Shown piece by piece: positions 13,773 to 37,266 of a DNA stretch of 37,404 nucleotides. The notes under the pieces are model-generated. The model was not told where the DNA came from. It saw only the letters and a list, made by a program, of their open reading frames with translations, and did not search any database. Both the position numbers and the translations under genes were made by a program. The first letter of the stretch is position 1, and each line of letters opens with the position of its first letter. The stretch lies in IMG/VR virus record IMGVR_UViG_3300037166_000005, positions 1 to 37,404 of that record. One strand, written 5' to 3'. The stretch is from a virus.

Positions 13773-14138
13773 CTACGCGGCTGATTCGCGCGTGGCGAGG
13801 GCCTTCCAGTAACCGGCTCCGGGCGTGTGGTAGACCTGAAGCACACGATAAACCTCACCACCTGTAGCTGGGTACTGGATCTTGTCGCTGGCAGCGTTGA
13901 TCCGCGTGACGTAGATGGGTACGGTACTCCAGAAGCTGCGGACCTCGCTCACACGGTCAGCTTCAGGCAGCATGGCGACTTCCTTGTTGGAAGCCTGCTG
14001 TACCGGGCCGAACTGCTGGATGGTGGAAACGGTGCTCTGGAACCCGCCGGCAATCCAGGCGCCTGCACTTCTCAGAATGGTGTATTGCTGCGGGGCGCAG
14101 AGGTCGGGGTCGGAGATCACTTCTTGCATAGAAATCAT
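13773..14138 (-). CDS. Putative head-completion (head closure) protein
   Basis: A 121-residue protein whose start overlaps the preceding stop as ATGA. The pattern ISDPDLCAPQQYTILRSAGAWIAGGF, then MLPEADRVSEVRSFWSTVPIYV and EVYRVLQVYHTPGAGYWKALA, resembles small head-closure or head-tail adaptor proteins (a beta barrel with a 'LPE.DR' loop). Location between the tail-completion and terminator genes supports a neck role. The family is not named with certainty. Confidence 0.65.
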   Translation of the reverse strand: MISMQEVISDPDLCAPQQYTILRSAGAWIAGGFQSTVSTIQQFGPVQQASNKEVAMLPEADRVSEVRSFWSTVPIYVTRINAASDKIQYPATGGEVYRVLQVYHTPGAGYWKALATRESAA

Positions 14139-14641
14139 ACTGACTCACGTCTACTTACTTTGGCTGCTTCAAAGGCTTTCTCAAAAGTTTCACCTTTGCC
14201 AAGCCACTTCACCGTAGTTGAAGCCGCGTAAGGCCGCACACCAACTTTGTACGTGCCCCACTTTCCATAGGCTGCACGACCAGTGTAAGCTGACGCAGGC
14301 GCTTCGACTGTCGCTAGCGTACCCCATAAAGCCTGGGCCTTCTCATAAGCGGCGTGCCAGCTCATGCCTTGGTTAATGGCATCGCTTGCTTTTGTGTTAG
14401 CCTTTATCATAGCTAATCTATCAAGATCACGCTGAAGCATGCCGGCACGTGTAGATGGGTAACTGCCAGTGTGTACAGGCGGATTACCGCTGCTCTTATG
14501 CAGACCATTCCACTTGGTCTTTCCACAAAGCCCACATTTAGGAAACTTCTCGGTTGACGCTTCTGGCATCATGAAGGCATGCTCTTTAGCTGCATTCAAT
14601 ACGTGGTCTAGTGCTCTATGCATTCGCGCTCTTCGGTCCAC
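14135..14641 (-). CDS. Unknown protein with N-terminal RRARMHRALDHVLN motif
   Basis: A 168-residue protein starting at GTG 14641, with AGGGGG upstream. Residues 3-16 (RRARMHRALDHVLN) match a motif that recurs in other proteins of this phage. Residues 33-46 (KFPKCGLCGKTKWN) hold a CxxC knuckle, and the second half (YGKWGTYKVGVRPYAAS..EKAFEAAKVSRRE) is unassigned. It is translationally coupled with the putative head-closure gene. The motif stands at the very N-terminus here, a useful hint that it may act as a targeting tag. No function is known to me. Confidence 0.75.
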   Translation of the reverse strand: MDRRARMHRALDHVLNAAKEHAFMMPEASTEKFPKCGLCGKTKWNGLHKSSGNPPVHTGSYPSTRAGMLQRDLDRLAMIKANTKASDAINQGMSWHAAYEKAQALWGTLATVEAPASAYTGRAAYGKWGTYKVGVRPYAASTTVKWLGKGETFEKAFEAAKVSRRESV

Positions 14642-15031: not shown

Positions 15032-15589
15032 TTATTCCTCTTTGATAATCCCTATTATCGAATTTCTTAAAGCCCCAGTGTCGATCAGCGGCCGGTTGCT
15101 GCCCTTGCGTGCGATCGTGCCAGGTGTGTTTGGTGCCCAGTGATTATCCGGTAAAGTGAACCATTTTCTAGCGGCATTCTGCCCGGCCATCGCGGCGCGC
15201 TTCATCTTCTTGACGGCCAGGTCATGGTCGCCGTCCAGTGACGCCTTCACACTAGCACCTAGTTCGCGAGAGATGATCTTCTTGTTAGTCTCATTCTCGA
15301 TCGCCGGCTCAATGACAGGGCGCGCCGGGATGTACTTCAGTGGGCTACCCTTTGTGTGGATGAAGAGTAACTCTGCATTGGTGACGTCTTGCGTTGCGGC
15401 TTTCTTCAAGCGTGCCAGCTTCTTTTTGCCGCGCACCTTGCCGGCCATTTCCAGCAGCTGCTCAGCGCGGGCGGCAGTACCGGCAGCAGGAACACCGACA
15501 TACGCAGCCAGCTTGGTGATACCAGCTAGGCGCTTGAATGCCGCCGCAGCGCCGGACTTACGGGCGATGGTGATTGTTGGGGAGGTCAC
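15032..15589 (-). CDS. Tail completion / virion morphogenesis protein (gpS/gp10-like)
   Basis: 185 residues from a GTG start that overlaps the upstream stop (GTGA). The segment TNAELLFIHTKGSPLKYIPARPVIEPAIE followed at the end by GSNRPLIDTGALRNSI is the hallmark of the HK97 gp10 / phage virion morphogenesis superfamily ('IPaRPf', 'LvDTG.LrnSI'). These proteins complete the tail top or join head and tail. The Lys-rich stretch GKKKLARLKK is a family-variable insert. Confidence 0.85.
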   Translation of the reverse strand: MTSPTITIARKSGAAAAFKRLAGITKLAAYVGVPAAGTAARAEQLLEMAGKVRGKKKLARLKKAATQDVTNAELLFIHTKGSPLKYIPARPVIEPAIENETNKKIISRELGASVKASLDGDHDLAVKKMKRAAMAGQNAARKWFTLPDNHWAPNTPGTIARKGSNRPLIDTGALRNSIIGIIKEE

Positions 15590-16302: not shown

Positions 16303-16321
16303 CTTCCCGCTCCTTCATGAA

Positions 16322-16402
16322 TCACAAAATCAGTACCGGCCCGCCGCCAACCGCGCGCGCCATCGTACTTAGCTGCACGCCGTAAGCCGCATCAAATACT
16401 CC
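16322..16402 (-). pseudogene. Orphan copy of the 3' end of the DUF4054 connector gene
   Basis: Read on the minus strand, the sequence after the stop of the 56-residue gene continues in the same frame as GVFDAAYGVQLSTMARAVGG and then GPVLIL before a TGA at 16322-16324. The intact connector gene ends YGVQLSTMAKVIGGGPVLIM. Twenty-nine bases are identical in both copies; the rest is diverged but encodes nearly the same peptide. There is no start of its own. It looks like the displaced original, or a second allele, of the connector 3' end. Confidence 0.8.
16358..16386 (-). repeat. 29-bp exact direct repeat, copy A
   Basis: Identical over 29 bases to 17179-17207 and in the same orientation, 821 bp apart. 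It encodes the connector's C-terminal YGVQLSTMA segment in the orphan copy. Bases on both sides differ, so the repeat has sharp ends. Confidence 0.9.
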
Positions 16403-16573
16403 TTAGCCCAGTGTCGCGATGAGCCGTGCTTTAGCGGCTTCACGGTCCTGTACGTTCTGTGTGTGCTGTGCTTGAATAACTGCGATCTGCGCACCGGTTT
16501 CAGTCTGAGCCTTATCTGCTGCCAGGAAGTCGGTGAGCGCTTGCTGAGCTACGTTCGGGTCTACTATGGGCAT
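16403..16573 (-). CDS. Small helical protein, 56 residues
   Basis: From ATG 16573 with GGAG upstream, the frame encodes MPIVDPNVAQQALTDFLAAD, then a Gln/Ala-rich amphipathic helix (AQIAVIQAQHTQNVQDREAA) and ends ARLIATLG. It starts 16 bases after the stop of the zinc-ribbon gene. Its frame runs through its TAA straight into the orphan connector 3' end. Codon pattern and ribosome binding site support a real gene; function is unknown. Confidence 0.65.
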   Translation of the reverse strand: MPIVDPNVAQQALTDFLAADKAQTETGAQIAVIQAQHTQNVQDREAAKARLIATLG

Positions 16574-16588
16574 TTCGGTGGTATCTCC

Positions 16589-17128
16589 TTAGTCATCGTC
16601 ACGATAGTGAGTTTTGTGCTGCGCCTTTAACTGCTCGTCAACGGACTTTGAGCTGCTGTGATTGTAGTTGAAACGGCAGCGTGGACACTTATAACTCCAA
16701 CTACCTGGCGCCGTAAAGTTCTTTTCGTCAAGATGAGCACCGCATGCATCACACTCACGGCCCTGCGGCTTGAAGTCCTTTGCCGCTTTGCGATCAAGAA
16801 CGCAGTCCAGTGCGCGATGGAGCCTGGAGCGGCGGTCTGCGGAGTCTTTGGCCTTTTGGTGCTCAGGTGCTTCAATACGTAGTCCACACTTCACGCAGGG
16901 CAGGTTAGCAGAACCGCGCTTTGGTGTTTGGTATGAATGTGGCTCAATCTTCCTCAAAGCTCTGATTCTGTCCTCATTCGTAACCGCGTCTTTGGCGGTA
17001 CGCAGCGCCATCAATTTATCTACCGCTACGGGCGGAAGGCCCTGGTTTATCAACCAATTACGAATACTGCCCTCAGAGTAACCACCAGCCCGCAAATCTT
17101 TAAGCATCTCTTCACGACTCTTCGCCAT
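16589..17128 (-). CDS. Modular zinc-ribbon protein with LHRALD motif
   Basis: 179 residues, with GGAGG eight bases before the ATG. Residues 1-43 form a short helical module (SREEMLKDLRAGGYSEGSI). TAKDAV (44-49) precedes a segment with CVKCGLRIE (78-86). KAKDSADRRSRLHRALDCVLD (92-112) and AAKDF (115-119) precede a zinc ribbon with CDACG (126-130) and CPRC (148-151). Three AKD linkers thus separate the modules. Together with the 56-residue gene it forms the cassette between the two 29-bp repeats. DNA binding is possible from the ribbons; function unknown. Confidence 0.75.
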   Translation of the reverse strand: MAKSREEMLKDLRAGGYSEGSIRNWLINQGLPPVAVDKLMALRTAKDAVTNEDRIRALRKIEPHSYQTPKRGSANLPCVKCGLRIEAPEHQKAKDSADRRSRLHRALDCVLDRKAAKDFKPQGRECDACGAHLDEKNFTAPGSWSYKCPRCRFNYNHSSSKSVDEQLKAQHKTHYRDDD

Positions 17129-17142
17129 CTCTCATTCCTCCA

Positions 17143-18120
17143 CTACATGATAAGCACTGGTCCACCACCGATGACTTTCGCCATCGTACTTAGCTGCACG
17201 CCGTAAGTTGTAAGTTGCCACTGCCCAAACTGCTCCAGTGATGCCAGCGCCTGATAACTCACTGACACGTCACCTACGCTCTTCGCGGTCTGCAGACCGC
17301 CGAACAACCCTTGAGCTGCGATCTGCGCACCGCTACTAACTCCTGGCGTTAGCACTTGGGTTTGAATCAGCCAGGTGGCATAAAGCTGATCACCGCTAAT
17401 GGTAGGCGTCATCAACGTAATAGTAACGCCGCTCAGGGTGTAGTCCACACCGCCCGGACGGAGGTACTCACCGTTCTTGGTGAGCGTGCTGAGCGTGTCA
17501 CCGGGAGGCTGTGCGCTCAAAGTGTAACTGCTGCCAGGAATTACGCCGGTCGGAACTTCACCGTGAACGGAAGACTCTAAGGCGAACCCAACCTCCGCCG
17601 CGTCGCTCTTTGCGAACAGCGTGAGGTAATGGGCGATGTACCATGCAATGGCGATGTACCATGCGTCTTGCCACCGCTCTTGCACCAGCGACGCGACGGC
17701 TAGGTTGAGGTAAAGCTGGATCACCGCAGTAGGCACTGGCGGCGCTTCATACACGGACAGAACGGCGGCGGAGGTCGTCACTAGGGCAGAGTTATTGACG
17801 GTGACGTTGCCGGCACCAATGGCTGTGATCACCGTGCCCTTAGGGAAGTTGCCAGGTGACTGCAGGAACTGTCCGTAGCTCAGGCCGGTGGTGCTAGCAA
17901 CCGTGATGGTGGGGCTGCCTGCTGCGATGGAGCAACCGCCAACGGTAGTGGGCAGCCCGAAGAACTTGTGGTAGACAGACAGGAAGTCATCCAGATAGTA
18001 CGGAGGATTCTGGCCGAACACAAAGCCGACTGAACCACCTCGGCCGCAGTCGGCGAAGAATCCGTTCTCAGCGCCCCAGGCAGTCTGCAGCCACAAATCG
18101 AAGTTCGGCCAGTTTCCCAT
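17143..18120 (-). CDS. Head-tail connector protein (DUF4054) with inserted beta modules
   Basis: 325 residues. The DUF4054 fold is seen in AVIQLYLNLAVASLVQERW, IAIAWYIAHYLTLFAKS, GGLQTAKSVGDVSVSY and the C-terminal FGQWQLTTYGVQLSTMAK. It forms the adaptor ring under the portal. Two extra beta modules interrupt it: residues about 62-124 (ITVASTTGLSYGQ...VITAIGAGNVTVNNSA) and 184-253 (GEVPTGVIPGSSYTLS...GVDYTLSG...GDQLYATWL). The second is related to the small fibre-associated protein at 882-1268. The 3' end carries one copy of the 29-bp repeat. Confidence 0.85.
   Translation of the reverse strand: MGNWPNFDLWLQTAWGAENGFFADCGRGGSVGFVFGQNPPYYLDDFLSVYHKFFGLPTTVGGCSIAAGSPTITVASTTGLSYGQFLQSPGNFPKGTVITAIGAGNVTVNNSALVTTSAAVLSVYEAPPVPTAVIQLYLNLAVASLVQERWQDAWYIAIAWYIAHYLTLFAKSDAAEVGFALESSVHGEVPTGVIPGSSYTLSAQPPGDTLSTLTKNGEYLRPGGVDYTLSGVTITLMTPTISGDQLYATWLIQTQVLTPGVSSGAQIAAQGLFGGLQTAKSVGDVSVSYQALASLEQFGQWQLTTYGVQLSTMAKVIGGGPVLIM
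17179..17207 (-). repeat. 29-bp exact direct repeat, copy B
   Basis: Exact copy of 16358-16386, here inside the intact 3' end of the connector gene. Together the copies bracket the 56-residue gene and the zinc-ribbon gene. Confidence 0.9.
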
Positions 18121-18131
18121 AGTACTCCTTG

Positions 18132-18506
18132 TTACTTCGTCAAGCCCAACTTGGCGCCACGTGAAGACTTCTTGGCAGGTGCCTTGGCCGCTTCTGGTTC
18201 GTCATCCTCGTCGTCCTCGTCGTCCTCGGTTACTCCGCCGTCTTCAGGCACCTTGCCATCCGGTTCCGGTTCCGGTTCCGGTTCCGCTACAACGGCTGCG
18301 ATGGGTTCAGGCGGCGTAAGGTTCACGATGCTGCCATCCTTGATACTCAGCTGGTAAGTCTGCGTCTCAGCGACCCAGGCCGGAACTTGGATGGGGCCTT
18401 CTTTTGTGGGGCCAGTAACGAAGCGACGCTCGCCGTTTTCTCCGCTGTGAAGCAGGAACAACTTGGCGCGCTTGAAGTACAGTGTTAGCATTTTCGTTTT
18501 ACTCAT
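18132..18506 (-). CDS. Acidic-tailed protein of unknown function upstream of the connector
   Basis: 124 residues. The first 75 (MLTLYFKRAKLFLLHSGENGERRFVTG..IQVPAWVAETQTYQLSIKDGSIVNL) look beta-rich and are typical of small proteins between capsid and connector genes. Residues 80-108 are low-complexity acidic (EPEPEPEPDGKVPE, then EDDEDDEDDE), and the C-terminus is basic (KKSSRGAKLGLTK). No family is recognised. An acid-base tail could bind capsid or scaffold. Confidence 0.75.
   Translation of the reverse strand: MSKTKMLTLYFKRAKLFLLHSGENGERRFVTGPTKEGPIQVPAWVAETQTYQLSIKDGSIVNLTPPEPIAAVVAEPEPEPEPDGKVPEDGGVTEDDEDDEDDEPEAAKAPAKKSSRGAKLGLTK
18200..18285 (-). repeat. Two short simple-sequence repeats (hexamer units)
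   Basis: A tcctcg/gtcctc-type hexamer repeats at 18200-18228 (encoding Asp/Glu) and ccggtt repeats four times at 18260-18285 (encoding Glu-Pro). Both preserve the frame, so copy-number change would only lengthen or shorten the acidic tail. Confidence 0.85.
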
Positions 18507-18709: not shown

Positions 18710-19498
18710 TCACGCTTTCTTGCGCGTACCATTAGGATGCGTCTTATGCCAATAGACTTTGTGGGCCTCTGGCGTCATGGCTGCGTAGCGTGCTTTCCCG
18801 CTAATGCTTTGCTTCATACGCTCTGCCGGGTCCTTATAACGCTGTGTCTGCGCTATACTCTGATGTACGCGCTCTGCAGGGTTAGACCAACGACGACAAT
18901 TACCGGCACTTGTTTTTTCGTGCTCTGCCGGATCACTGTAGCGCCGTAATTGCATTGCACTTCGTTTTGCACATTCAGCAGGGTCTTTGCATAATAGTAT
19001 CTGGCTAGCCCGCTGTTTCTCATGCTCCGCTGGATTAGCGTAACGCCATAGTTGACCGTCCTGCATCTTCGCACGTTCAGCTGGGTCTTCAAAACGACGC
19101 TTTACACCAATACTCATCTTTTTACGCGACGCCTTAGAGTGCTTACCACGAAAACCCTCACCGCCAACAGTAAGATTGTAACTTTTATCGCCCAATAAAT
19201 CAGCGTTATATGTATGAAGTTTCTTAATGTAAGAGACTTCTTTTTCAAGTAGGTTTTTGCGTGGTCCGCGCCAGATTACTTCAAACTTAAAGCTCTTCCA
19301 ATGCTTATCAATCTTCCACGCTTTGCGCATAGCGCGATGGAGTGGACCCTTTGACACGCCAGTACAAGCATGCCAAATATGCTTCTTCCACCTATTAGTC
19401 TCCGGTTTACCAGTGGTATCACATCCTACGTAGCGTTTACCATTTACTAAATTAGTAATTAGATAAACACAACCCCAACCTTCTCGATGTTTTCTCAT
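18710..19498 (-). CDS. GIY-YIG homing endonuclease (free-standing) with 17-residue repeats
   Basis: 262 residues from ATG 19498, with AAGG five bases upstream; an ATG at 19510 is a weaker choice. The GIY-YIG nuclease domain is clear: GCVYLITNLVNGKRYVG, the Arg in NRWKKH, the Glu in NLLEKEVSYIKKL, and YNLTVGGEG. Residues about 136-239 are six tandem copies of a 17-residue unit built on a D/N-PAE-R/H-x-K core with aromatic spacing, likely the DNA-binding part. It sits between the major capsid gene and the acidic-tailed gene without interrupting either. It looks more AT-rich than its neighbours, which fits recent arrival. Confidence 0.9.
   Translation of the reverse strand: MRKHREGWGCVYLITNLVNGKRYVGCDTTGKPETNRWKKHIWHACTGVSKGPLHRAMRKAWKIDKHWKSFKFEVIWRGPRKNLLEKEVSYIKKLHTYNADLLGDKSYNLTVGGEGFRGKHSKASRKKMSIGVKRRFEDPAERAKMQDGQLWRYANPAEHEKQRASQILLCKDPAECAKRSAMQLRRYSDPAEHEKTSAGNCRRWSNPAERVHQSIAQTQRYKDPAERMKQSISGKARYAAMTPEAHKVYWHKTHPNGTRKKA
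18782..19093 (-). repeat. Six tandem 51-bp units in the endonuclease C-terminus
   Basis: Six consecutive copies encode FEDPAERAKMQ.., ANPAEHEKQRA.., KDPAECAKRSA.., SDPAEHEKTSA.., SNPAERVHQSI.. and KDPAERMKQSI.., with an exact 17-codon period. Confidence 0.9.
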
Positions 19499-19530
19499 GA
19501 TTACCTTCATGTACCATTTAAGAATTCAGG

Positions 19531-21538: not shown

Positions 21539-23212
21539 TTACTTGCCTCCTTTATGGGCATTGTGTGCAGCATCGTATGCGGCCTGTATGTCCGCAATAC
21601 GCTTGTCAGCGCCGGCAGCGCCAGAATCAGCGGCATGGGCGCGGTTGAGTGGTGCGCGAGGCAGCTTGCTATCACGTGCACGGGCTGCTCCGGCAAAGCT
21701 GCCGTAACCGCCGTTGCTGGCGCGAGAGCTGCGGGTAACGCTGCTCAGCGCCGAGTTGAAAGCGTCCTGCACCTTACTATCCTTGCAGCGGGCCACGACC
21801 GGCCGAAGCATCTTCAGCACCGCAGCGGCGCCGTCAGCAGCGCGGGCGCGGTCCTTAGCATGGCGCTTGTCACCCACAGGCTCCAAGTCCTCTTCGCCCT
21901 CTTCAAGGTCGTCGTCCTCAGCGCCCTCTTCTTCTTCGAGTTCCTCAGGATCTTCGTCCTTGGCGTCCTCAGCTTCAGGCTCTTCATTGCCGAGAACTTC
22001 ATCCAAAGGCGCGGCATCAACTACCGGCTCATCCTCTTCCTCGAGGTCTTCGTCGCTAGCATGCGCCGGCTCTTTCTCCTCTTCAGAGAAGAACTGGCCG
22101 AGCAGGGACTTCAGCTCTTCCAGGTCAGCGTCGTTAACCTTGCGGTCCTTTGCGCGGTGCTTGTCGCCGGCTTCTTCCTGGTCAATGAGGTCGTCCAGGG
22201 CGTCGTGCATGGCCTTGCGTTTGCCGTCCATTACTGGTTCGTCCTCCTCGTCAAGCTCGGCATCGCGCAGCTTGCGATCACGTGCCTTGCGCTTGGCGTC
22301 TGCCACCTCTTCGTCATGGTCGTCTTCTTCCATGAGCTCATTGTCGCGGGCCTTGCGGTCTCGCGCCTTCTTGTCCTCAGCGGGCGGAGGTGATTGCTTA
22401 ATGGCCTCAGCCGCCTCAGCCAACGCTTCTGGCTCCGCATCGGTAGCATAAGCCTTCAGGCCCAGACCGAGCAGGTGCTTCAAAACATTCGCCACGGGTT
22501 TGTTCTCCTTTTTCGAGGGTTGTACAGCGGTTGAGGTTTTAGACGTCGCCGCCCTTTCGACGGCGGGCGGCGCTATGGAACTAATGGGCGGTGAACTTGT
22601 AGGGTCAGGGGCGGAGTCGCCGATGGCTACTTCCAAACCGGCGCGGCCCTTGGGGACAATGGCGGCGTGGTTGCCGACCATATTGCATTGAATGATCTTC
22701 TTGCCGTCTCGCGCGATTGAGAAGTCATAGCCAAGGCTGACATCACGCGAAGTCTTATTGCGGACCTTATCGATAAGCGGCGCCCGCGAGATCACAAGGT
22801 CGGCGATCACTGGCCACTCACCGCTGTCCAGCTGCTCATCGCCTTTGCGCACATTCTGGATGTGGCCGCAGGCATACTCGGCAAAGTTGTTTGGAGTGAT
22901 AAAGCCAGGCGGATGGTTGTCTGCGATTGGCTTGCCGTTCAGCGATGCCAAGAACTCTGGCGCGAACACTTCGCTCGCCGGCCGGTACAAGTCAATAAGC
23001 GCCGATGGGTTGCCGATGTCAATGCCCAGGTCCTCCGCGCTCTCCTGCGGCAGGTCGCGCACAGCATACTCTTGGAAACCAGTCCGCGCAATGGGACAGC
23101 CAACCACGATAAGGAAACCCTCTGGCGTCTCGCTGATGTGCTCACTGAGTTGAGATACCAAGTAGCCATGAGCAGTCTGCGTGGCGTCGATCACTTCTTC
23201 GTTATTGGGCAT
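21539..23212 (-). CDS. Prohead protease (DUF2213) fused to an acidic scaffold
   Basis: 557 residues. Residues 1-200 form the DUF2213 protease: GKPIADNHPP (93-102), SRDVSLGYDF with candidate nucleophile Ser159, and MVGNHAAIVPKGRAG with candidate His182. Residues 230-557 are charged and helical and serve as scaffold. They contain repeated ARDRKARD, KARDRKLRD, HRAKDRKVND and RHAKDRARAAD elements and a segment KRKAMHDALDDLID (331-344) similar to the LHRALD motif of other proteins here. AAGGA precedes the ATG. The protease would digest its own scaffold during maturation; cutting at the repeated KD/RD sites is a hypothesis. Confidence 0.88.
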   Translation of the reverse strand: MPNNEEVIDATQTAHGYLVSQLSEHISETPEGFLIVVGCPIARTGFQEYAVRDLPQESAEDLGIDIGNPSALIDLYRPASEVFAPEFLASLNGKPIADNHPPGFITPNNFAEYACGHIQNVRKGDEQLDSGEWPVIADLVISRAPLIDKVRNKTSRDVSLGYDFSIARDGKKIIQCNMVGNHAAIVPKGRAGLEVAIGDSAPDPTSSPPISSIAPPAVERAATSKTSTAVQPSKKENKPVANVLKHLLGLGLKAYATDAEPEALAEAAEAIKQSPPPAEDKKARDRKARDNELMEEDDHDEEVADAKRKARDRKLRDAELDEEDEPVMDGKRKAMHDALDDLIDQEEAGDKHRAKDRKVNDADLEELKSLLGQFFSEEEKEPAHASDEDLEEEDEPVVDAAPLDEVLGNEEPEAEDAKDEDPEELEEEEGAEDDDLEEGEEDLEPVGDKRHAKDRARAADGAAAVLKMLRPVVARCKDSKVQDAFNSALSSVTRSSRASNGGYGSFAGAARARDSKLPRAPLNRAHAADSGAAGADKRIADIQAAYDAAHNAHKGGK

Positions 23213-23224
23213 GTAGAGTCCTTA

Positions 23225-26152
23225 TTACTTAGTGACTTTGACTGGAAGCGGGAGAGCGTCTTTTGCCTTATCTTTCCAGTAATGCACATCCGCCCTCTGG
23301 TACAGTACCTGGGCCTTATTGTCTAAGCGAGTGAACTCTGACTTTGACAGTGCTTTTGGTCCTTTGTTGCCGACTTCTATTGCAGCAAGGTATTTCTTGC
23401 CATCAGGCGAAGACTCAAAAGCTTTTACAGCGCGCTCGCCCTCGTCAGCTTTATCGTATGGATCAAATGAAGCGTCTTTCGCCCTGGCGGAGTTAGGGAT
23501 GCACATACCGCTAATACGCTCACGCGCAGAACTATTTATCTGCGCCCAGGACTTTCTAGCCCACATGTGCGCATCGTCCTCATCGAAGTCATCAAGTAAC
23601 CAACCTACGCGCGTCTGTGGGCTTGCAGCATTCCAGGTGCGCTCGTCGCGCGGGTCAGTGGCATCCTTTCCCACTGTAAGTGGTTCCACTACCTCTTCCC
23701 CAGTCTTCGCGTCATGCGCCACCCGAACACGCTCGCCAGCCCGCGTCCGTTCTACAGCACTTCGCAACGCCGGACCAGCAGCGTCGAATGCCTGGACCTT
23801 GCCGACTGATGGGTGCTCGTACTGCCCATGGTAGCTGCGCACGGCCTGACGCTGGCACTCGGCAATTCCGTCCCTGGCGATCTGCTCATTATGCTGATCG
23901 CCGACCTTACGGAAGCCTGAGGCAGCTTGGCGATAAGAGTCCATCGCTATGGCGTGATTGCCTGTGACTTCTTGGTGCTGGGCCGTGTACAGTGAGATTG
24001 GCGAAGCTGAATCATAAGCCTTGCCAGACCGCGCGGCTTTCAAGGCGGCATCGACTTCGGCTACAAGGTTTGGGTCGCTCTTGAATAAGCCGCGTGCCTG
24101 TTCATATAGCCTAATAGCTGTAGGAAAGTCGCCCGCTTGCGCAGCTTTATCGCCGCGTTCAGCGACTTTCTTGCCATTGTGCAACATCACTTCATTTTCA
24201 GAGTTGTTATAAGCTTGACCCACTGTCACGCCATCCTTTGCAAGAGCTTTACCAGTGACAACGATGTTTCTACCTCCACTAACAGGTTTGATGTCATAGC
24301 GATCACCATCAGCAGTAGCGCCTGTATGATAAACAGCCACAACTTCGCAAGCCTCACCTTTGTAGGTGACTTTATCACCTACGTCAAATGTAGAGGAGTC
24401 CTTCGCTTGTGTTTTCAAGAAACGCTCCAGATCGGCCATCTTTTCAACCTGTCGATGATCAGGGAATTTAATTGCTTTGAGCCGCGTAAGTTCCTGGCGC
24501 AGGCCTTCAGTAGCGCTTTTGGCTTGCTCTTCACTATAGGGCGGAAGAGAGTAGTCCTTTGCCTTCTTTGTGGTCTCAGCTTTGTACTCGCGCAATGCTT
24601 CAGCACGTGTTGGATAGCCGCCGTATGTTTCACCATTTAGCTTGAAGTAGTAGCCGGCGATGTTTCGGCCTATGCTAGGTTCAGCGTCCTTCCCCAATGG
24701 ATACGCTTTCACCTTCTCCCCCATCTCTCTCAGCGCCTGCTCATGCGCGCGCAGTTTATTGGTCGTATCGCCAGGCTTTTCTTTTTCAAGTTGCGCCTGA
24801 ATCTTCTTGCGGCGCTTGAAGTATTCGTCCTCGTCGGAACGGGGAGAGTCGGTGGCATGGAATTTGTTTCCAACGGCGACAGCCTTACCAGACATGGCAC
24901 AGCGCTCATTAGATGAATTTCCCTCACCACTATGATTCAAGAATTTCCCTTCAACCACACCTACGTATTTTTTACACGTTGGGCACTGTGCACCATGACC
25001 AACGTCCTTCCCCTTCACCGCAATAGGAAGCGGGAGGGCGTCTAGCCCGTGATTAGCGTGCCCATCAGGCGTGGTGTCTGGGATTCCTTCTTTGCGCATG
25101 AACGTTTTCAGCGCGGCTTTTGTGCCTTTATTAAAAACGGTGTACTTCTTTTTATTACCGTTCATGTCAGGCGCTTCAGTGGTCACACTCCAGGAGCCGT
25201 CACTGTTTTGCTGAATGTCATACTCTTGGCCCTTGGTACTGCGTGCCCAGTAGGAGTCGTCCTTCGCCTTCCCCACAGGAAGCGGAAGGGCGGCTTCTTT
25301 TGCGGCGCGGTGTTCGGCACGCTTCTGCATCGGCGCAATCGCCGCCTCAGCTGCTGATTTAGAGTAATAACCCTCACCTACAACAGTGTGGTCAGGTCGA
25401 TACACGAACCACCTTACTCCGCGCTGCGCAATGTAGTAACCAGAGTCAGCGGCCTCATCCCTCCCCTTCACCGCAACAGGAAGCGGGATGGCGTCTCTCA
25501 TGGTGGCCTTCTTGCCATTGTTATAGATACTGTGTGTTTTCCAAGTGGTACCGCCGTCAGTGCTCACCTTGATCTTGGCCTGGCCATCGAGTGACTTAGC
25601 GTCCCTGACGGCGCTAGGCAGTGTATCGAACTTCTTGCCCTCTACCATGTAAGTTGGCGCTTGGGCATCACTCCCCTTCACTGCACCCTTTCGCTTTGAT
25701 GCTTCCAGGTATTGCTTCAACTCTCGCAAGTCTTCACCCTCAGCGCCCGCCTTGATGGCGTCTTCACACATATCGATGCACATGCCATAGTCACGCTGTG
25801 TCCACGCGACTCTGACGTCTTTCAACAGTTTGCTTGCATAGCCACTGTCATTCACCGGCACAGGGCGAAGGGAGTCTCTGCTTTGTGCACGTTTAATTTC
25901 GTACTTCAAATCTTTGATTTTTTCTTCAATCTCACGCGTGTTACCACCATGTTGTGAATGCCCTGGCTTGCGTACTTCGCGTAAAATACTTTCTTCCTCG
26001 GCTAGTTCACGTTGCAGACTGCCAAGCGACCGGTCGTCCTTCCCACCCGCCTTGTTCAGCGCGATCGCGACAGCCTGCTTCTTCGGCTTCCCAGCTTCTT
26101 CCTCAACCTTGATGTTGTGTCCGATGTTCTTCTTTCCAGCGAGTAGCGGCAT
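23225..26152 (-). CDS. Multi-module head-region protein with repeated LPLPV / AKD linkers
   Basis: 975 residues directly upstream of the protease. It opens with a small motif common at the start of phage proteins (MPLLAGKKNIGHNIK...GKPKKQAVAIAL). Modules follow, separated by linkers: a coiled coil (45-92), a TPR-like helical module (100-160), a beta module ending STDGGTTWKTHSIYN, YYIAQRGVRWFVYRPDHTVVGEGYYSK (239-265), EYDIQQNSDGSWSVTTE, a zinc ribbon with CPTC (390-393) and C418, AGYYFKLNGETYGGYPTRAEAL (499-520), a KOW-like barrel (588-635), TPR-like helices (660-770) and two C-terminal modules. Linkers include AIPLPVAVKGRD, ALPLPVGKAKD, ALPLPIAVKGKD and the C-terminal ALPLPVKVTK, plus AKD at 531-533, 583-585, 638-640, 891-893 and 963-965. 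No enzyme is recognised. A packaged polyprotein is my best guess. Confidence 0.8.
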   Translation of the reverse strand: MPLLAGKKNIGHNIKVEEEAGKPKKQAVAIALNKAGGKDDRSLGSLQRELAEEESILREVRKPGHSQHGGNTREIEEKIKDLKYEIKRAQSRDSLRPVPVNDSGYASKLLKDVRVAWTQRDYGMCIDMCEDAIKAGAEGEDLRELKQYLEASKRKGAVKGSDAQAPTYMVEGKKFDTLPSAVRDAKSLDGQAKIKVSTDGGTTWKTHSIYNNGKKATMRDAIPLPVAVKGRDEAADSGYYIAQRGVRWFVYRPDHTVVGEGYYSKSAAEAAIAPMQKRAEHRAAKEAALPLPVGKAKDDSYWARSTKGQEYDIQQNSDGSWSVTTEAPDMNGNKKKYTVFNKGTKAALKTFMRKEGIPDTTPDGHANHGLDALPLPIAVKGKDVGHGAQCPTCKKYVGVVEGKFLNHSGEGNSSNERCAMSGKAVAVGNKFHATDSPRSDEDEYFKRRKKIQAQLEKEKPGDTTNKLRAHEQALREMGEKVKAYPLGKDAEPSIGRNIAGYYFKLNGETYGGYPTRAEALREYKAETTKKAKDYSLPPYSEEQAKSATEGLRQELTRLKAIKFPDHRQVEKMADLERFLKTQAKDSSTFDVGDKVTYKGEACEVVAVYHTGATADGDRYDIKPVSGGRNIVVTGKALAKDGVTVGQAYNNSENEVMLHNGKKVAERGDKAAQAGDFPTAIRLYEQARGLFKSDPNLVAEVDAALKAARSGKAYDSASPISLYTAQHQEVTGNHAIAMDSYRQAASGFRKVGDQHNEQIARDGIAECQRQAVRSYHGQYEHPSVGKVQAFDAAGPALRSAVERTRAGERVRVAHDAKTGEEVVEPLTVGKDATDPRDERTWNAASPQTRVGWLLDDFDEDDAHMWARKSWAQINSSARERISGMCIPNSARAKDASFDPYDKADEGERAVKAFESSPDGKKYLAAIEVGNKGPKALSKSEFTRLDNKAQVLYQRADVHYWKDKAKDALPLPVKVTK
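23241..25497 (-). repeat. Four dispersed copies of an LPLPV-coding repeat
   Basis: Copies of about 20 bases (plus strand aggaagcgggagggcgtct or close) lie at 23241-23262, 25023-25043, 25277-25296 and 25478-25497. The copies at 25010-25043 and 25463-25497 are nearly identical over more than 30 bases. Each encodes (A)LPLP[VI] at a module boundary of the 975-residue protein. Confidence 0.8.
25669..25808 (-). repeat. TPR-like module repeat, copy in the 975-residue protein
   Basis: About 140 bases encoding DYGMCIDMCEDAIKAGAEGE and then DLRELKQYLEASKRKGAVKG. The counterpart at 27349-27494 encodes SYGDCIDDCQDAIAAGADGE and DLREAKQYLEACKRKGAVKA. The homology ends just after KRKGAVK, where a linker (GSD or ATD) begins. 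Confidence 0.85.
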
Positions 26153-26956: not shown

Positions 26957-28759
26957 TTACTCATACTCTGGTGCTTCAGCGCCTGAACCACTGCACACCT
27001 TGCCATTCAGGTAGTGCCGCGAAAGAACACCCCGTACATTTGGTATGTACTGGCGGCAGACCTTGCATAAACTCACGGCATCCTTCGCTCTCCCACGCGC
27101 CGAGTCCATCACCGCATCCAAAGCCCTGTGGAGCCGCGTGCGGCGGGAGTCGGTGGCATCATATCCGCGTGTATTACCAATCTTCCACTCACCTGTTCTG
27201 CGCGTGCTTACCAAGAACTTCAAAGCTATGCGCGTCCCATTTGAAAGCGTGGCTGTATCGCTGCCGATGCTCTCAATAGTGACGCCACCGACTTTATCGC
27301 CAACGCACGGCCTGTACCCTGTAGGATTCGTTATGATACCGGAGTCGGTGGCTTTAACGGCACCTTTACGCTTGCAGGCTTCAAGGTACTGCTTTGCCTC
27401 GCGTAAATCTTCACCATCAGCACCCGCCGCAATTGCATCTTGACAATCATCAATACAATCGCCATATGAATGCATCTGCCAATGCTCGCGCGCTTCACGC
27501 AGAAACTTCTGCGCTCTATCTGAGTAATCCTTCGCTCTGCGGGAATCAGTGGCCTTCTTAGGCTCACCAAGACTTTCCTTCACGCCCTTAAAAAGTTGGT
27601 TTGCTAACCGTATGGCGTCTGGCTCAGGAATACCTCGCTGCTTCAACTTATAAACGTAAGTTTGTAACGCATCTGCCACAGCGTCCTTCGCTCTCGTCAC
27701 TACGCTACCACCCTTCTTGCTCAACTTACCGAGCCGTTCCAGTTCATTGAATGCAGTTTCGAGCAGCACATCGCGCTGCTGCGGTGGGCGGTCAATAAAC
27801 GCTTTGATGTCAATGCCCAGAGTATCGAGTAGTGATTGCATAGAATACTTGTCAAGCTGTCTTGTAGAAAGCCTGTCTTGTGTCCTAGTAGCTGAGTCAC
27901 GTGCACCAGGCTTTAAGCTCCTGGCTAGCTCACCGCGTCTCACGGCTTTGTGGTATGCTTCACGTAGTTCAGATTCTTTCTTCGGGTCTTTATTCAGTAT
28001 CCAGGCGAGACGCGCTTGATTTTCAGGCGAAGCGTCGCTCCCGCGCGAAGTTCCAGATTTTCTCATTTTATCAATCACCGAGTGTGCTATACTAAAGGCG
28101 CAGTCTTGATATGCTATTGCGCGGCCAAAATCATTTGACTTAGCGAATTGCTCGGCCTGCTTCAAAGCGTCTTTTGCAGTCTGGAGTTTCTTCTGCCAGT
28201 AAACAGGGTCATCATCCAGTTTGGCATTGCTGAGAAGTGCCTCGGCTTGCCTTACCAAATCAACGACAGCTTGATGGGTGGCACGATAACTCGCCGCCTT
28301 ATTTTGATCAAAGCGCGCGGGGTTGTTATAGATGTCATCATGTTTAGCTCGCAGAAGTTCAGCAGCGGAGTTAAGGCGCTTGCCAGAGAGCACATCTTTC
28401 GCCTCACCCTTCACCCTAGTCAGCACCCCATACTTCAAAGGTTTAACCAAGCCGCGTCCAGTCCCGTCCATAGGATGAGGGTCCATTTTTACTACGCCGT
28501 CAACTCCCACTACAGCGTGCATTCCACCGCGCGGCGAGATTCCTAGAATAAGGTGCTCTCCGACTGGTGGTTGCTCGGCATCATACGGAAGCTCTTCATA
28601 ACGGAGGCCGTGCTTGGCAAGGAACGTGTTAACATATGGGTCCTCGTTGGCGTCTAGGAAGTCTGGTACATCAGATTCTTGGAGATTGAGGATGGAAGCT
28701 AGTGAAGTGCGGAAGCATGTTCCCGTGCCGCCTGTTCTCGATTGTGTGAGCTTCCGCAC
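26957..28759 (-). CDS. Cysteine-peptidase-like protein fused to linker modules
   Basis: 600 residues from GTG 28759, with GGAGG six bases upstream. Residues 1-110 look like a papain-fold peptidase domain known from phage proteins: GTGTCFRTSLASIL with candidate Cys15, VPDF, ISPRGGMHAVVGVDG with His81, and MDPHP with Asp93. A long helical part follows (120-400) with GSDAS, GARDS and RAKDA boundaries. Then come a TPR-like module (409-472) shared with the 975-residue protein, a barrel (VGDKVGGVTIESIG), DSRRTRLHRALDAVMDSARG (536-555), RAKDA and a Cys-rich C-terminus (CKVCRQYI). Proteolytic activity is inferred from the triad; the natural substrate is unknown. Confidence 0.8.
   Translation of the reverse strand: MRKLTQSRTGGTGTCFRTSLASILNLQESDVPDFLDANEDPYVNTFLAKHGLRYEELPYDAEQPPVGEHLILGISPRGGMHAVVGVDGVVKMDPHPMDGTGRGLVKPLKYGVLTRVKGEAKDVLSGKRLNSAAELLRAKHDDIYNNPARFDQNKAASYRATHQAVVDLVRQAEALLSNAKLDDDPVYWQKKLQTAKDALKQAEQFAKSNDFGRAIAYQDCAFSIAHSVIDKMRKSGTSRGSDASPENQARLAWILNKDPKKESELREAYHKAVRRGELARSLKPGARDSATRTQDRLSTRQLDKYSMQSLLDTLGIDIKAFIDRPPQQRDVLLETAFNELERLGKLSKKGGSVVTRAKDAVADALQTYVYKLKQRGIPEPDAIRLANQLFKGVKESLGEPKKATDSRRAKDYSDRAQKFLREAREHWQMHSYGDCIDDCQDAIAAGADGEDLREAKQYLEACKRKGAVKATDSGIITNPTGYRPCVGDKVGGVTIESIGSDTATLSNGTRIALKFLVSTRRTGEWKIGNTRGYDATDSRRTRLHRALDAVMDSARGRAKDAVSLCKVCRQYIPNVRGVLSRHYLNGKVCSGSGAEAPEYE
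27349..27494 (-). repeat. TPR-like module repeat, copy in the peptidase-like protein
   Basis: Counterpart of 25669-25808. Encodes HSYGDCIDDCQDAIAAGADG and then EDLREAKQYLEACKRKGAVK. The two copies differ at many third positions, so the duplication is not recent. Confidence 0.85.
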
Positions 28760-28769
28760 TTACAGCCTC

Positions 28770-28982
28770 CTACGCCATTACTCCACTAGCCGTATCTGGT
28801 ACATGTTGATGCTCAAGTTCCCGCTCTTCACGCCACAGCAGCAGGTTCAGCGGATTAGATCTGACCGGAACGTAACGGCCATCATCGCCTAGAGGCGCGG
28901 CGTTTGGAGCAGTAACTTTCTGATGACAAGTTGGACAGCTGTATGTGAACGACCGACCGCATTGACACATTTTGAATAGCAT
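28770..28982 (-). CDS. Small zinc-ribbon protein
   Basis: 70 residues, start overlapping the portal stop (TGATG). The N-terminus MLFKMCQCGRSFTYSCPTCH has four Cys (6, 8, 16, 19) arranged as a zinc knuckle. The rest (GDDGRYVPVRSNPLNLLLWREE) is unassigned. It lies between the portal and the peptidase-like gene. Possibly a separated module of the same kind as the ribbons in its neighbours. Confidence 0.75.
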   Translation of the reverse strand: MLFKMCQCGRSFTYSCPTCHQKVTAPNAAPLGDDGRYVPVRSNPLNLLLWREERELEHQHVPDTASGVMA

Positions 28983-31948
28983 CAGGGTTTCACCGTTCCG
29001 GCTGGTTTACTCATGTCATGCTTTTTGAGCCACTTCTTGAAATCGTCAACTTGCATTGGTGTCACATCCATGTAGATGGAGCAAGCGCGGTCGTGGCCGG
29101 CATTGAATGCCTTGATGGCGTCATCCATAGATGAATAACCGACAAAACACTTGTGCTCGTCAAACCCACGCCGTGGCGGCAAATGCTTCTGATCGAAGAT
29201 GTAAACCCAGGTAGACGCTGGATCAGGCCCGATGCAGATGTCGAGCGAATCACCGTCCGCACCAGGAATGCCGTCAAAGTAGCCGTAGTCATACGCCATG
29301 CGCACTCGCCAGCCTTGCCCTGTGCGCCATTGGCCGCGTTTCTGCTCGATGACCACTGGAAGGCCGTGGATAGTTTTAGTTTCAACTGCGGGGCCGTCGG
29401 CGTCGCGGGCCTGGCCTGTGTCACCAACGAAACCACGACTTCTAGCGTATGCTTTACATTTAGCCGGATCAACACCGTACTGGTCTGCGTAGATATACAG
29501 GTTATCAAATGCGCGCCTATAAAGCAGTGCTACACCTTCGTCAGTACCGCGCAGTGCTTTTGGCAATGTTTCCGCTTCATTATCGCAAGCTTCCAGCCAG
29601 ATAAGCTCGGGCGTCATCTTAGTGTCTTCGGCCCTCGTACGCGCCTTCCCCTGAGCACGCTGTACATACTTTAATACTTGCTGCTGCACATGCTCTGGCT
29701 TGAACCCGCGCTCAGTAGTAACATAGGCACCCCTAACCCACACACCCATTTCATACTGTCCGTTGCCGCTCACTGTCGCTCGCAAGTCCAGGTCAGGTTT
29801 GCGCGCGCCAGGCGCCTCTGTCCCAAACCAAACAATGTAGGCATAGTTTGAATCACTTGTTATTCGGAAGCCAGCGCTACGCAGCGCCTCTACTGTTGCC
29901 AGTTTAGCCGCACTCCATGGTTTGACGTCGTTCGCCCTTCCGCGTCTATAAGCATCAGAACAAGACGGGCAGACTACCGAGCCGTTCACGTCATCGCCAT
30001 CCAAGTCAGCGGCACACCATTGGCACTTGGTGACGCCCTTGCGGAGGTCGGCATCTTGTGCGAAGCCTCTAGACCGTGCATACGCCATACATTTAGCTGG
30101 GTCAACGTGAGCCTGCTCTGCATAAAAGCTGAGGTTTCTAACTACACGTTTATGAAGTTCGATCTCGCCTTGTTCCGTACCCCGCAGTGCTTTTGGCAGT
30201 GTTAAAGCCTCATTGTCACAGGCGTCCAACCAAACAAGCTCAGCGCGAGTTGTCGCATACTTAGACCCGGCATCCTTCGCCTTTGAAGTGCCTTCCGAAC
30301 CCTCCTCCACAGACCCATTTGGTGGAGCCTGGTGACCCTGTGGCTCATCCGCCTCACCCGGCTGGCCGTTTACCTTACCGGCCTTATTCTCTTCCGTCAG
30401 GGCCTTAGCGGGCGAGGACGCAGGATTCAGCCCTCCGCCCTCAGCACCGAATAACCCTTCGCCCATTTCGCCTTCGGCTTGGACCTTGTCACTAAGCTTC
30501 TCGATGTCCTCGTCAGTGATGTTGGTGAAGATCTCGGTGCGGGTGCTGGACTGCTTCAGTTCCTTGGCGAATGTGCGCAGGCTGATGCCGCCTGCATTCA
30601 ACGCCACTACGGCGGTATCTACTACGGTCTTAGCCAGCTCAGCCTTCTCTTTGTCATCCAGCACGCGGATGGAGGGGAACAGTAGGTCAAGGTCGTCCGG
30701 CACTTCTCCCAACTCGCTCATACACAGGACCGGGTACAGCTTTTCCAAAGCTGGCCGCAATGTAACGTCGGACTCAGTGGAGATGGTCTCTTCGTAAATC
30801 TTCTCGTCACCGTCACCGGCCTGTCCGAGCCCGCTGTAAGTACGGCCCCACAACCGAGTGACCGGCATCTTGGCGGCACCGCTAATAGCCAACTGCCACA
30901 TCTGCATCATGTCCGACAAGCCGGCGAAGCTATACTGCGTTTGGCTCAGCTCACCGTCCTTCTCGAGCAGCGCGAGGCTTTGATTCGACAGCATCTCATT
31001 GAACCGCTGCATGCGCTGCTCGAACTTCTGCGCCGCTGCTTGGTTCATACTGAGACCGGACATCATGCCGGCAAGGTCTGGCGCCTTCATCCCAAGAATG
31101 TTAGCTCTGAAGGAAAGCGACAATGCGTTCGACGTCAGCGTGTCATAACCTTGAATGGTTTGAATCACTGGAGCTAGGACGCTGATGCCCCAATCCTGAT
31201 AAGCTGAGTTCTCCGGCTCCGGCATTCGCGGGCCGCTAAAACGAAGGATGCGGCTGTTGTGCACTTTGAAGCTGTCGCCGCCTTTGACCTTAACTTCGTA
31301 GAATTCTGAATGACCAAAGTCCAATGGGCGATTGAGGTCGTCGCAAACGTCGCCCGTTGGTGAGATCCCACTCCAGCGATCGAAGGTGATAAGACCTGCG
31401 TAGTCATGAATACCCACGCTGTCAAGTTCTAGGGGTTGATCCAGTTCTTTGTCTTGCTTCTTGATAGCGATCAGCGCGCCTGCGCCGCCAAACAACCGCG
31501 CCTTCTCAATAGCCTCGCGAACCTTACTGCGCGTGTTGGTGCGGCGAACGGCGCGATCGATACGCGTAAGATCTTCAGGATCAATGTCGCTAGTGATCTT
31601 CGGCCAAGTCTTGACGATATCCTCAGCGGGCGCGCAGACGATGCGGCGGGCGATCCAGGACGACTCGAAGAAGGAGATGATAGCCCAAAAATTAAGCGAG
31701 AACCGCATTAGCGGGTATTCAGCATAGTTCTCAAGGCTGGAAGTGCCATAACCCGTGCGTGCCGCTGGGTTGCTGAAGACGTCGATGGCATGGGCCAAGT
31801 TGGAGGTAGTGGGTCCTATCAAACCAAGATGATCTTCTTGCTTAGTGATCTTACTGCGCTTTGAATACTGTGCGCCAACGGGCGCTGTGCGGGCGTCGAA
31901 CAATGTGTCAAGAGCGGAGCGGGCCGCTTTGTTTTTGCTAGATGGCAT
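28982..31948 (-). CDS. Portal protein (DUF1073) with a long modular C-terminal extension
   Basis: 988 residues. Residues 1-500 are a DUF1073 portal: SFFESSWIARRIVCAPAEDIVKTWP, AIEKARLFGGAGALI, LSFRANILGMKAPDL and MPVTRLWGRTYSGLGQAGDGD. The extension carries AKDAG (about 555), a helical module ELVWLDACDNEALTLPKALRGT ending AYARSRGF, a zinc ribbon (CQWC, CPSC), a beta module, a second copy ELIWLEACDNEAETLPKALRGT ending AYARSRGF, and then a domain of about 125 residues. That last domain (WRVRMAYDYGYFDGIPGADGDSLD, CIGPDP, VYIFDQKHLPPRRGFDEHKC) matches the phage 'InPase' pyrophosphatase-like domain. Portals of this family usually have 450-600 residues. The extension would face the capsid interior or the neck; its function is unknown. 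Confidence 0.88.
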   Translation of the reverse strand: MPSSKNKAARSALDTLFDARTAPVGAQYSKRSKITKQEDHLGLIGPTTSNLAHAIDVFSNPAARTGYGTSSLENYAEYPLMRFSLNFWAIISFFESSWIARRIVCAPAEDIVKTWPKITSDIDPEDLTRIDRAVRRTNTRSKVREAIEKARLFGGAGALIAIKKQDKELDQPLELDSVGIHDYAGLITFDRWSGISPTGDVCDDLNRPLDFGHSEFYEVKVKGGDSFKVHNSRILRFSGPRMPEPENSAYQDWGISVLAPVIQTIQGYDTLTSNALSLSFRANILGMKAPDLAGMMSGLSMNQAAAQKFEQRMQRFNEMLSNQSLALLEKDGELSQTQYSFAGLSDMMQMWQLAISGAAKMPVTRLWGRTYSGLGQAGDGDEKIYEETISTESDVTLRPALEKLYPVLCMSELGEVPDDLDLLFPSIRVLDDKEKAELAKTVVDTAVVALNAGGISLRTFAKELKQSSTRTEIFTNITDEDIEKLSDKVQAEGEMGEGLFGAEGGGLNPASSPAKALTEENKAGKVNGQPGEADEPQGHQAPPNGSVEEGSEGTSKAKDAGSKYATTRAELVWLDACDNEALTLPKALRGTEQGEIELHKRVVRNLSFYAEQAHVDPAKCMAYARSRGFAQDADLRKGVTKCQWCAADLDGDDVNGSVVCPSCSDAYRRGRANDVKPWSAAKLATVEALRSAGFRITSDSNYAYIVWFGTEAPGARKPDLDLRATVSGNGQYEMGVWVRGAYVTTERGFKPEHVQQQVLKYVQRAQGKARTRAEDTKMTPELIWLEACDNEAETLPKALRGTDEGVALLYRRAFDNLYIYADQYGVDPAKCKAYARSRGFVGDTGQARDADGPAVETKTIHGLPVVIEQKRGQWRTGQGWRVRMAYDYGYFDGIPGADGDSLDICIGPDPASTWVYIFDQKHLPPRRGFDEHKCFVGYSSMDDAIKAFNAGHDRACSIYMDVTPMQVDDFKKWLKKHDMSKPAGTVKP
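29437..30248 (-). repeat. Two copies of a 59-residue module in the portal extension
   Basis: Copies at 29437-29613 and 30069-30248 share W-L-x-ACDNEA-x-TLPKALRGT and YGVDPAKC or AHVDPAKC followed by AYARSRGF. They are clearly related at the DNA level in parts. A zinc ribbon and a beta module lie between them. Confidence 0.9.
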
Positions 31949-36546: not shown

Positions 36547-37266
36547 CTACGCATGAAGTACATGGCCCATGCGTTTATGCTGCGCACTGGCTTTAGCGCT
36601 AAGCACTGTGAGCGTTTTATCAGAGAAGTAACGCCCGCTAGCTGCACGACGTTTGCCAGCCTCTGATTGTTTGCGCCGTGTTACCACACCAGCTAGACTA
36701 GCATAGTGGCGCATCGATGCTTCACGCGTCTTTACGTGCTCGGCTTCACTCGCGTAACGAATACGAAGTCCGGTTGAATGATTAGCGCATTCACGCTTGC
36801 TAAGCTTACGGCCGGACAACTTCGCTGCTATACGAGCTTTGCACGCTGCACCTTCAGGCGTAGCATAGTACGCAATTTTCTTAGCGGCAACTTTGCCCTT
36901 ATTAGCCGCACCAATCTTCGCGCCGATGGCTTTGCGTTCTTTGTAACTACGATGCCCATAACCGCCGCCATCGCCACCGAGTGTAAGGTTGTAGCCATGC
37001 GGCGTAATTGTATTTAGCTGCTTAATAAAGCACCGCTCAGCTTCGCGCAATAAAGGCTCAGTACATTGATGCAGTGTTTCTATGACAAAATTTGCCGCGC
37101 CCCATTTGCGTAATGCGCGATGAAAGTAAACGTCACTACCATGCGCAGCATCATAGAGATGTCGCGCAAATCGCTTTTCGACAGCGACGATTGTCCACCC
37201 AACGTAGCGCTTACCATTCAGTTTGTTAGTTACGCTGTAAACATTACCGACACGATAACTTTTCAT
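36547..37266 (-). CDS. GIY-YIG homing endonuclease with NUMOD-like repeats
   Basis: 239 residues from ATG 37266, which overlaps the terminase stop (ATGA) and has GGAGG eight bases upstream. The nuclease domain shows NVYSVTNKLNGKRYVGWT, the Arg in KRFARHLYDA, the Glu in PLLREAERCFIKQL and GYNLTLGGDGGG. Lys/Ala-rich DNA-binding repeats follow (GAKIGAANKGKVAAKK, RKLSKRECANHSTGLR). It sits between two copies of the terminase C-terminus. Homing into terminase genes is known in phages; the target here would be terL. Confidence 0.9.
   Translation of the reverse strand: MKSYRVGNVYSVTNKLNGKRYVGWTIVAVEKRFARHLYDAAHGSDVYFHRALRKWGAANFVIETLHQCTEPLLREAERCFIKQLNTITPHGYNLTLGGDGGGYGHRSYKERKAIGAKIGAANKGKVAAKKIAYYATPEGAACKARIAAKLSGRKLSKRECANHSTGLRIRYASEAEHVKTREASMRHYASLAGVVTRRKQSEAGKRRAASGRYFSDKTLTVLSAKASAQHKRMGHVLHA

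Follow-up and report, generated by a model that had tools for sequence, protein, structure and literature searches.

The internal proteins of phage T4 (IPI-III and Alt) are diverse, small and united by a common targeting peptide. They join the scaffold in the prohead core, are processed by the prohead protease and are ejected. The targeting sequence has been suggested to let T4-like phages package varied proteins (PMC9026906). T4 gp21 processes head proteins at short motifs ending in Glu, and SPN3US gp245 cuts after A-X-E (PMC9026906, PMC10052503).

We analyzed a virus sequence of 37,404 nucleotides (IMG/VR record IMGVR_UViG_3300037166_000005, positions 1 to 37,404), referred to here as the window. 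Its phage group is known here from metagenomes only. Between the connector gene and the neck gene of the window lie three cassette genes and a second copy of the connector 3′ end. Our explanation, to which we give a probability of about 70%, is that this boundary is a hotspot for cassettes, that cassettes occasionally stack and leave scars, and that tagged head cargo is the likeliest function of what they encode. The connector and its second 3′ end are placed as follows.

17143 to 18120, minus strand: intact connector / head-completion gene (DUF4054, phrog_302), 325 aa, with a 'type I' 3′ end (LIM, then stop)
17179 to 17207, minus strand: 29-nt block inside the intact connector, identical to 16358 to 16386
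16322 to 16386, minus strand: orphan connector 3′ end, 'type II' (LIL, then stop), with 29 nt identical to the intact gene and diverged thereafter

The intact gene matches both connector families (DUF4054, E 1e-12; phrog_302, E 6e-17). No match to it was found in INPHARED by tblastn, and the sole matches in a genome collection were distant loci of Bacillota that cover part of the gene. The two 3′ ends belong to a repeat pair (16310 to 16386 and 17131 to 17207) that is 77 nt long and 73% identical. Within it, the 29-nt block is present as two exact copies, where 0 are expected by chance, and the record holds no further copy at up to 3 mismatches. Read in the connector frame, the orphan encodes AAYGVQLSTMARAVGGGPVLIL and then stops. 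This frame has no start, since the TAA that ends the 56-aa gene interrupts it upstream.

The original prediction of a second connector 3′ end with 29 bp of identity is correct. Both copies, intact and orphan, also occur in an independent contig (L001/L008) that is 99% identical, so the arrangement is not an assembly error of a single record. The sharp ends that had been ascribed to the block hold for one side. Its left edge is a real junction; its right edge is the point at which two connector lineages diverge. The intact connector of one relative, L003, ends in CCGGTACTGATTTTGTGATTCATGGAGGAG and resembles the window orphan. It already carries the silent differences that had been taken as preserving the orphan peptide. 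Since these differences are found in another lineage, they are no sign of selection on the orphan, and selection on its peptide was dropped as an explanation.

The connector gene is a mosaic. The window and L040 are 97-100% identical over about nt 150-525 and less alike in most other parts. An Ig-like domain (a weak CBM_X2 match) spans connector residues of about 175-254. It recurs in the window gene at 882-1286 and inside the 13773-type head gene of relatives (L020-L025, L031-L034), and is missing from the L013 connector; this domain is mobile among structural proteins. At the window's orphan junction, one contig stops and another starts, on opposite sides of it (L002/L017 and L007, from a single sample), which looks like variation of the population at this point.

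IMG/VR was scanned with a profile, which confirmed 147 connector relatives; the best 80 of the 147 were read. The neck gene (phrog_222) directly abuts or overlaps the connector in L013, L020, L026, L034, L045, L080, L110 and others, and this arrangement is taken as the ancestral state. Elsewhere the boundary holds a GIY-YIG endonuclease gene (L021, L031, L048, L054), small zinc ribbons (mini-ORFs), coiled-coil-like proteins, a DUF6527 gene (L033), or genes that carry the tag peptide described below. Because it is empty in many relatives and variously filled in others, the boundary is a hotspot of cassette exchange in these phages.

Close relatives lack the window's pair of zinc-ribbon and 56-aa genes (16403-17128), which bears out the proposal that the pair is an insert. 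L003 has a connector protein 96% identical to the window's and a single, different cassette gene, and the final codons and leader of its connector are those of the window orphan. L004/L040 has a connector protein 95% identical to the window's, and right behind an orphan-like end comes a relative of the 15586-16302 gene. Such an end, and this gene behind it, had been forecast for relatives free of the pair. The 15586-16302 gene is not the ancestral neighbor of the connector; it is itself a cassette gene, and the neck gene holds the ancestral place. The matches run crosswise. The window's intact end (LIM, then stop; TAGTGGAGGA) is matched by the L004/L040 orphan, and the window's orphan (LIL, then stop; TGATTCATG) by the intact end of L003 and, less exactly, by that of L004/L040. 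Variants of the connector end thus travel with cassettes.

What drives the exchange could be homing endonucleases. GIY-YIG enzymes would cut near the boundary, repair with a diverged partner would replace or stack cassettes, and the tag genes would be passengers. The presence of GIY-YIG genes at this boundary in at least four lineages agrees with this, as do two more such genes elsewhere in the window (18710-19510 and 36547-37281). However, none of the three stacked arrays described below has an endonuclease in the boundary itself, and there is no known cleavage site. Family searches found no endonuclease gene in the window's own insert between connector and neck. As the driving force, endonucleases are unlikely; as a trigger compatible with the stacking model, their cutting is possible. 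Both GIY-YIG genes of the window are free-standing, and the one at 18710-19510 lies between the capsid gene and the gene at 18132-18506, a site also used in L003, L030 and L034.

The window's insert, from the connector stop to the neck gene, is composed as follows.

17129 to 17142, minus strand: leader with ribosome-binding site, from the connector stop to the first cassette gene (TGGAGGAATGAGAG)
16589 to 17128, minus strand: cassette gene 1, 179 aa, with an N-module, a tag helix and a zinc-ribbon-like C-module
16787 to 16837, minus strand: tag DRRSRLHRALDCVLDRK in cassette gene 1
16403 to 16573, minus strand: cassette gene 2, 56 aa, without a family match
16387 to 16402, no strand assigned: junction zone from the stop of the 56-aa gene to the orphan (GGAGTATTTGATGCG), probably a ribosome-binding-site-like stretch with a lost gene start
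16303 to 16321, minus strand: leader that bears the ribosome-binding site for the 15586-16302 gene and is conserved after the intact connector of L003
15586 to 16302, minus strand: cassette gene 3, 238 aa
15829 to 15879, minus strand: tag DRRSRLHRALDAVIDSC in cassette gene 3
15032 to 15589, minus strand: neck / tail-completion gene (phrog_222), taken as the connector's ancestral right neighbor

A close version of the leader TGGAGGAATGAGAG is found at the L040 orphan. The N-module of cassette gene 1 (about 47 aa) is common to L010, L073 and L082 and ends at AKD, and its zinc-ribbon-like C-module gives weak Pfam matches only. In cassette gene 3, a block running from AKD (residue 64) through the tag is also present in L004/L040, at 89% nucleotide identity over 312 nt. 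The window's cassette genes on either side of the orphan are unrelated outside the tag. No recombinase, integrase or transposase was identified by family searches of the three cassette genes, neither PADLOC nor Pfam assigned their products a convincing domain, and the zinc-ribbon protein had no match in INPHARED by tblastn. Its AlphaFold model is poor (pLDDT 57, pTM 0.28); the usable hints are that the N-module is helical at residues 5-47 and that residues 96-117, over the tag, form a helix. Across tag carriers, the attached modules seem to include zinc-ribbon- and helix-turn-helix-like domains, on weak matches. A stretch of 17 nt in the 56-aa gene (16480-16496) is identical to the connector at 17316-17332 in the same frame (GAQIA); 0 of 1000 shuffles exceed 13 nt. 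The neck/connector joint of L040 lies at these same codons.

Exchange of cassettes can be followed in three contigs from three different samples, L030, L081 and L082. L030 and L082 share 99.9% identity across 1,104 nt of connector-side flank and 100% across 1,289 nt of neck-side flank. Their middle genes differ, the common part being a 64-nt tag segment alone (89%). This swap of a whole cassette leaves no repeats. The L081 gene derives its first 245 nt from L030 (99.6%) and its last 353 nt from L082 (98.3%), and the two parts overlap in the 64-nt segment. L081 is a recombinant whose crossover lies inside this shared tag segment.

The 64-nt segment encodes the tag, RRxRLHRALDxVLD. The tag is present in both large cassette genes of the window and in other head-region genes (14135, 26957). 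These copies, and the helix on which the tag is proposed to be modeled, lie at the following positions.

14588 to 14638, minus strand: tag DRRARMHRALDHVLNAA at the N-terminus of the 14135-14641 gene
27098 to 27148, minus strand: tag SRRTRLHRALDAVMDSA near the C-terminus of the 26957-28759 gene
22175 to 22225, minus strand: GKRKAMHDALDDLIDQE, the putative model of the tag, a scaffold helix encoded within the DUF2213 head protease-scaffold gene (21539-23212)

A tag profile found 24 segments at E<1e-3 among 15,517 ORFs, mostly in unrelated proteins; the 8 examples that seeded the profile are among the 24. Shuffled ORFs gave 0 matches. A degenerate DNA pattern for the tag, run against all of IMG/VR, found 47 stretches, 46 of them with the head-region markers of this group (the exception is L134). 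The tag sits at residues 98 and 142 of the window's cassette proteins, and elsewhere anywhere from the N- to the C-terminus. Two tags per chain occur in proteins of L126/L132, L149 and L155. In L131, L142 and L146 the tag is at the extreme C-terminus of a protein encoded near the protease-scaffold gene.

The scaffold helix, RKxMHDALDRxLD, is conserved in 18 distinct DUF2213 homologues. Its R, H, A, L, D and D positions coincide with those of the tag, and the residue after H is mostly R in tags (HRALD) and D in scaffolds (HDALD). The best non-tag matches of the tag profile are protease-scaffold proteins, at cross-matching E values from 0.003 to about 1, weak for so short a motif. By its sequence, the tag resembles the conserved scaffold helix, through either common descent or convergence. 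A peptide common to cassette genes and capsid scaffold suggests that the cassette products are packed into the virus particle. Among titles and abstracts of the literature on DUF4054, DUF2213 and DUF2184, none describes such a tag.

Tag proteins and scaffold have a second feature in common, the motif (A/G)(K/R)D. It is enriched in the scaffold (8 observed vs 1.6 expected), in the 23225 gene (12 vs 2.3) and in the 26957 gene (6 vs 1.5), and is not enriched in the capsid, connector or tail genes of the window. Each of the two large cassette genes shows modest enrichment by itself: the zinc-ribbon gene with 3 vs 0.46 (P 0.011), the 15586 gene with 3 vs 0.61 (P 0.022). When 50 tag proteins are pooled with the tag masked, 78 motifs are found vs 24.3 expected. 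The 14135-14641 tag gene has no AKD-like site. AKD also marks module borders, namely the end of the N-module common to the zinc-ribbon gene, L010, L073 and L082, and both ends of the block that the 15586 gene shares with L040. The capsid protein, for which tblastn against INPHARED gave distant matches only (at most 36% identity among the matches listed), has an N-terminal stretch that varies in length and leads to an invariant D; in nearly all cases the next residue is A (L090: VKDAVA). The (A/G)(K/R)D sites at the module borders resemble this D-A step of the capsid, and both are candidate maturation sites, with Asp before the cut.

The proteins at 23225-26152 (975 aa) and 26957-28759 (600 aa), with their 12 and 6 (A/G)(K/R)D sites, may be head-cargo polyproteins. 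The portal (28982-31948) ends in an inorganic-pyrophosphatase (InPase) domain with a DarB-like PHROG match, just before which stands ARDADGP. This domain is possibly cargo fused to the portal, and it would fit a head that carries effector domains.

The tag might instead be unrelated to the virion, a linker or nucleic-acid-binding helix kept because it promotes cassette recombination. The L081 crossover falls within tag DNA, and the modules attached to tags look zinc-ribbon- or helix-turn-helix-like (weak matches), both as this would have it. Against this stand the restriction of the tag to head-region genes, its resemblance to the scaffold helix, and the enrichment, among tag carriers, of the D sites that the scaffold also has. 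We regard a non-virion role as rather improbable.

A further profile scan, for pieces of the connector and neck genes, revealed three separate arrays with an orphan connector 3′ end: the window, L004/L040 and L073. In L004/L040 a tag gene follows the connector; next comes a fusion of about 125 nt from the neck 5′ end with about 190 nt from the connector 3′ end, and after it a second tag gene and the intact neck. In L040 the neck fragment is 92% identical to the intact neck downstream, and the connector fragment is 71-73% identical to the connectors of L040 itself and of the window. In L073, about 32 nt of the neck 5′ end is fused to a connector 3′ end at an 8-nt overlap, GCTCGCAA; past the joint, 99 nt repeat exactly, up to the contig end, where assembly is least certain. 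Because the orphan is fused to a neck 5′ fragment in L040 and L073, it marks a joint between two stacked alleles. Such a joint brings the right end of one allele up against the left end of a second. The sequence left of the window orphan is not a neck 5′ fragment. A two-sided joint of the same kind is nonetheless probable in the window; its left partner ends in GGAGTATTTGATGCG, so the joint would lie inside a cassette and not in the neck gene. The window orphan is an ordinary kind of recombination scar, the joint of two stacked cassette units.

The original prediction had been of another kind, a discrete mobile cassette of the zinc-ribbon and 56-aa genes, inserted in the connector 3′ end and bringing its own copy of that end to restore the gene, as elements integrating in tRNA genes do. 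The connector is indeed intact, the displaced end resembles those of the pair-free L003 and L004/L040, and the left edge of the duplicate is sharp. The cassette, however, has no integrase or transposase, and no fixed core is seen. The repeated stretch differs in length and position among the three arrays (29 nt in the window, with 65 nt to the stop; about 190 nt, diverged, in L040; 99 nt, identical, in L073), neck-gene fragments belong to the joint in two of the three, and the near-identical L030 and L082 exchange whole cassettes without repeats. The 29-bp segment, which had been proposed as something to look for beside other inserts, is duplicated only in the window and the near-identical contig, and L040 and L073 repeat other stretches. 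An insertion that restores its target is very unlikely. Least likely, and largely refuted for the window, is tandem duplication within one genome with later divergence of the spare connector end: the exact 99-nt repeat of L073 is as expected of a young duplication, but the window's spare end and leader match the connectors of other lineages and not its own gene, and the cassette genes flanking the orphan are unrelated beyond the tag.

Under the stacking explanation, the unit of exchange would be a cassette allele made up of the last codons of the connector, a ribosome-binding leader, one or a few genes, and the first codons of the neck gene. Alleles would usually be exchanged whole, with borders at the conserved flanking genes, the step seen in L030 and L082. 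Occasionally, a crossover at little or no homology would fuse one unit, at its end, with the connector tail of a different unit. This would stack two cassettes, and the inner connector tail, with or without a neck 5′ fragment, would be left as a scar. The orphan may be kept for the sake of the next cassette gene, whose ribosome-binding leader it carries. This leader stands directly behind the orphan stop, so a joint upstream of it would give a working cassette.

The cassette proteins are modular, with an internal scaffold-like helix and modules split at (A/G)(K/R)D sites. The tag helix would bring the protein into the prohead, and the maturation protease would cut at the D sites. The freed modules would then ride in the head and enter the next host, where they might have an anti-host role. 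Tag DNA also provides short homology for recombining N- and C-terminal modules, as in the one clean recombinant, L081. We infer that the cassettes encode scaffold-tagged head cargo, similar to the T4 internal proteins but with an internal tag. For the group as a whole, we put forward a broader view tentatively, at a little under even odds. A scaffold-mimicking internal helix would be a portable packaging tag between protease sites, swappable cassettes at fixed head-gene boundaries would vary the ejected proteins, and tag DNA would be the recombination hinge.

If the tag is a packaging signal, every tag-bearing gene could be read as head cargo. This would give a list, from sequence alone, of ejected proteins, which are candidates for counter-defence or host takeover, and a small internal tag with which proteins could be loaded into capsids. 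In natural populations, the locus further displays joints and crossovers that stack and swap accessory genes between essential head genes.

Several known systems can be set beside this one. In its stacking, the locus is like the segmental amplification of T4 dmd-tifA, where tandem repeats arise by recombination at short homologies (PMC9391042); unlike it, the boundary here is fixed, and what is stacked in the window and L040 are different alleles of different lineages. An insert flanked by a duplicated target end, as in the window, is also left by integrative elements restoring the 3′ ends of tRNA genes. Here, in contrast, there is no recombinase or fixed core, the target is a protein gene, and joints include the second flanking gene. 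The P1 Dar proteins are head proteins linked to antirestriction, and the InPase domain of the window's portal matches a DarB-like PHROG; no homology of the cassettes to P1 Dar proteins was found. In SPN3US and phiKZ-type phages, a phage protease cuts many head proteins at a motif of three residues that ends in an acidic one (A-X-E in SPN3US; PMC10052503). Those phages are unrelated and much larger, and the putative motif here is (A/G)(K/R)D.

The likeness to the T4 internal proteins lies in a short peptide common to otherwise unrelated head-region proteins, which is found here as well. The T4 sequence is an N-terminal propeptide that is removed, and 10 of its residues suffice, whereas the tag here is internal, a helix about 17 residues long that some proteins carry twice. 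T4 sites are of the E type, whereas the candidate sites here are D followed by A or S, or similar; the tag here also resembles the phage's scaffold helix. Because the tag is internal and not an N-terminal propeptide, the system is not classed as a T4-type member, though it would work alike if the tag directs packaging. The cassette system is likely to be head-cargo targeting of a new variant sort.
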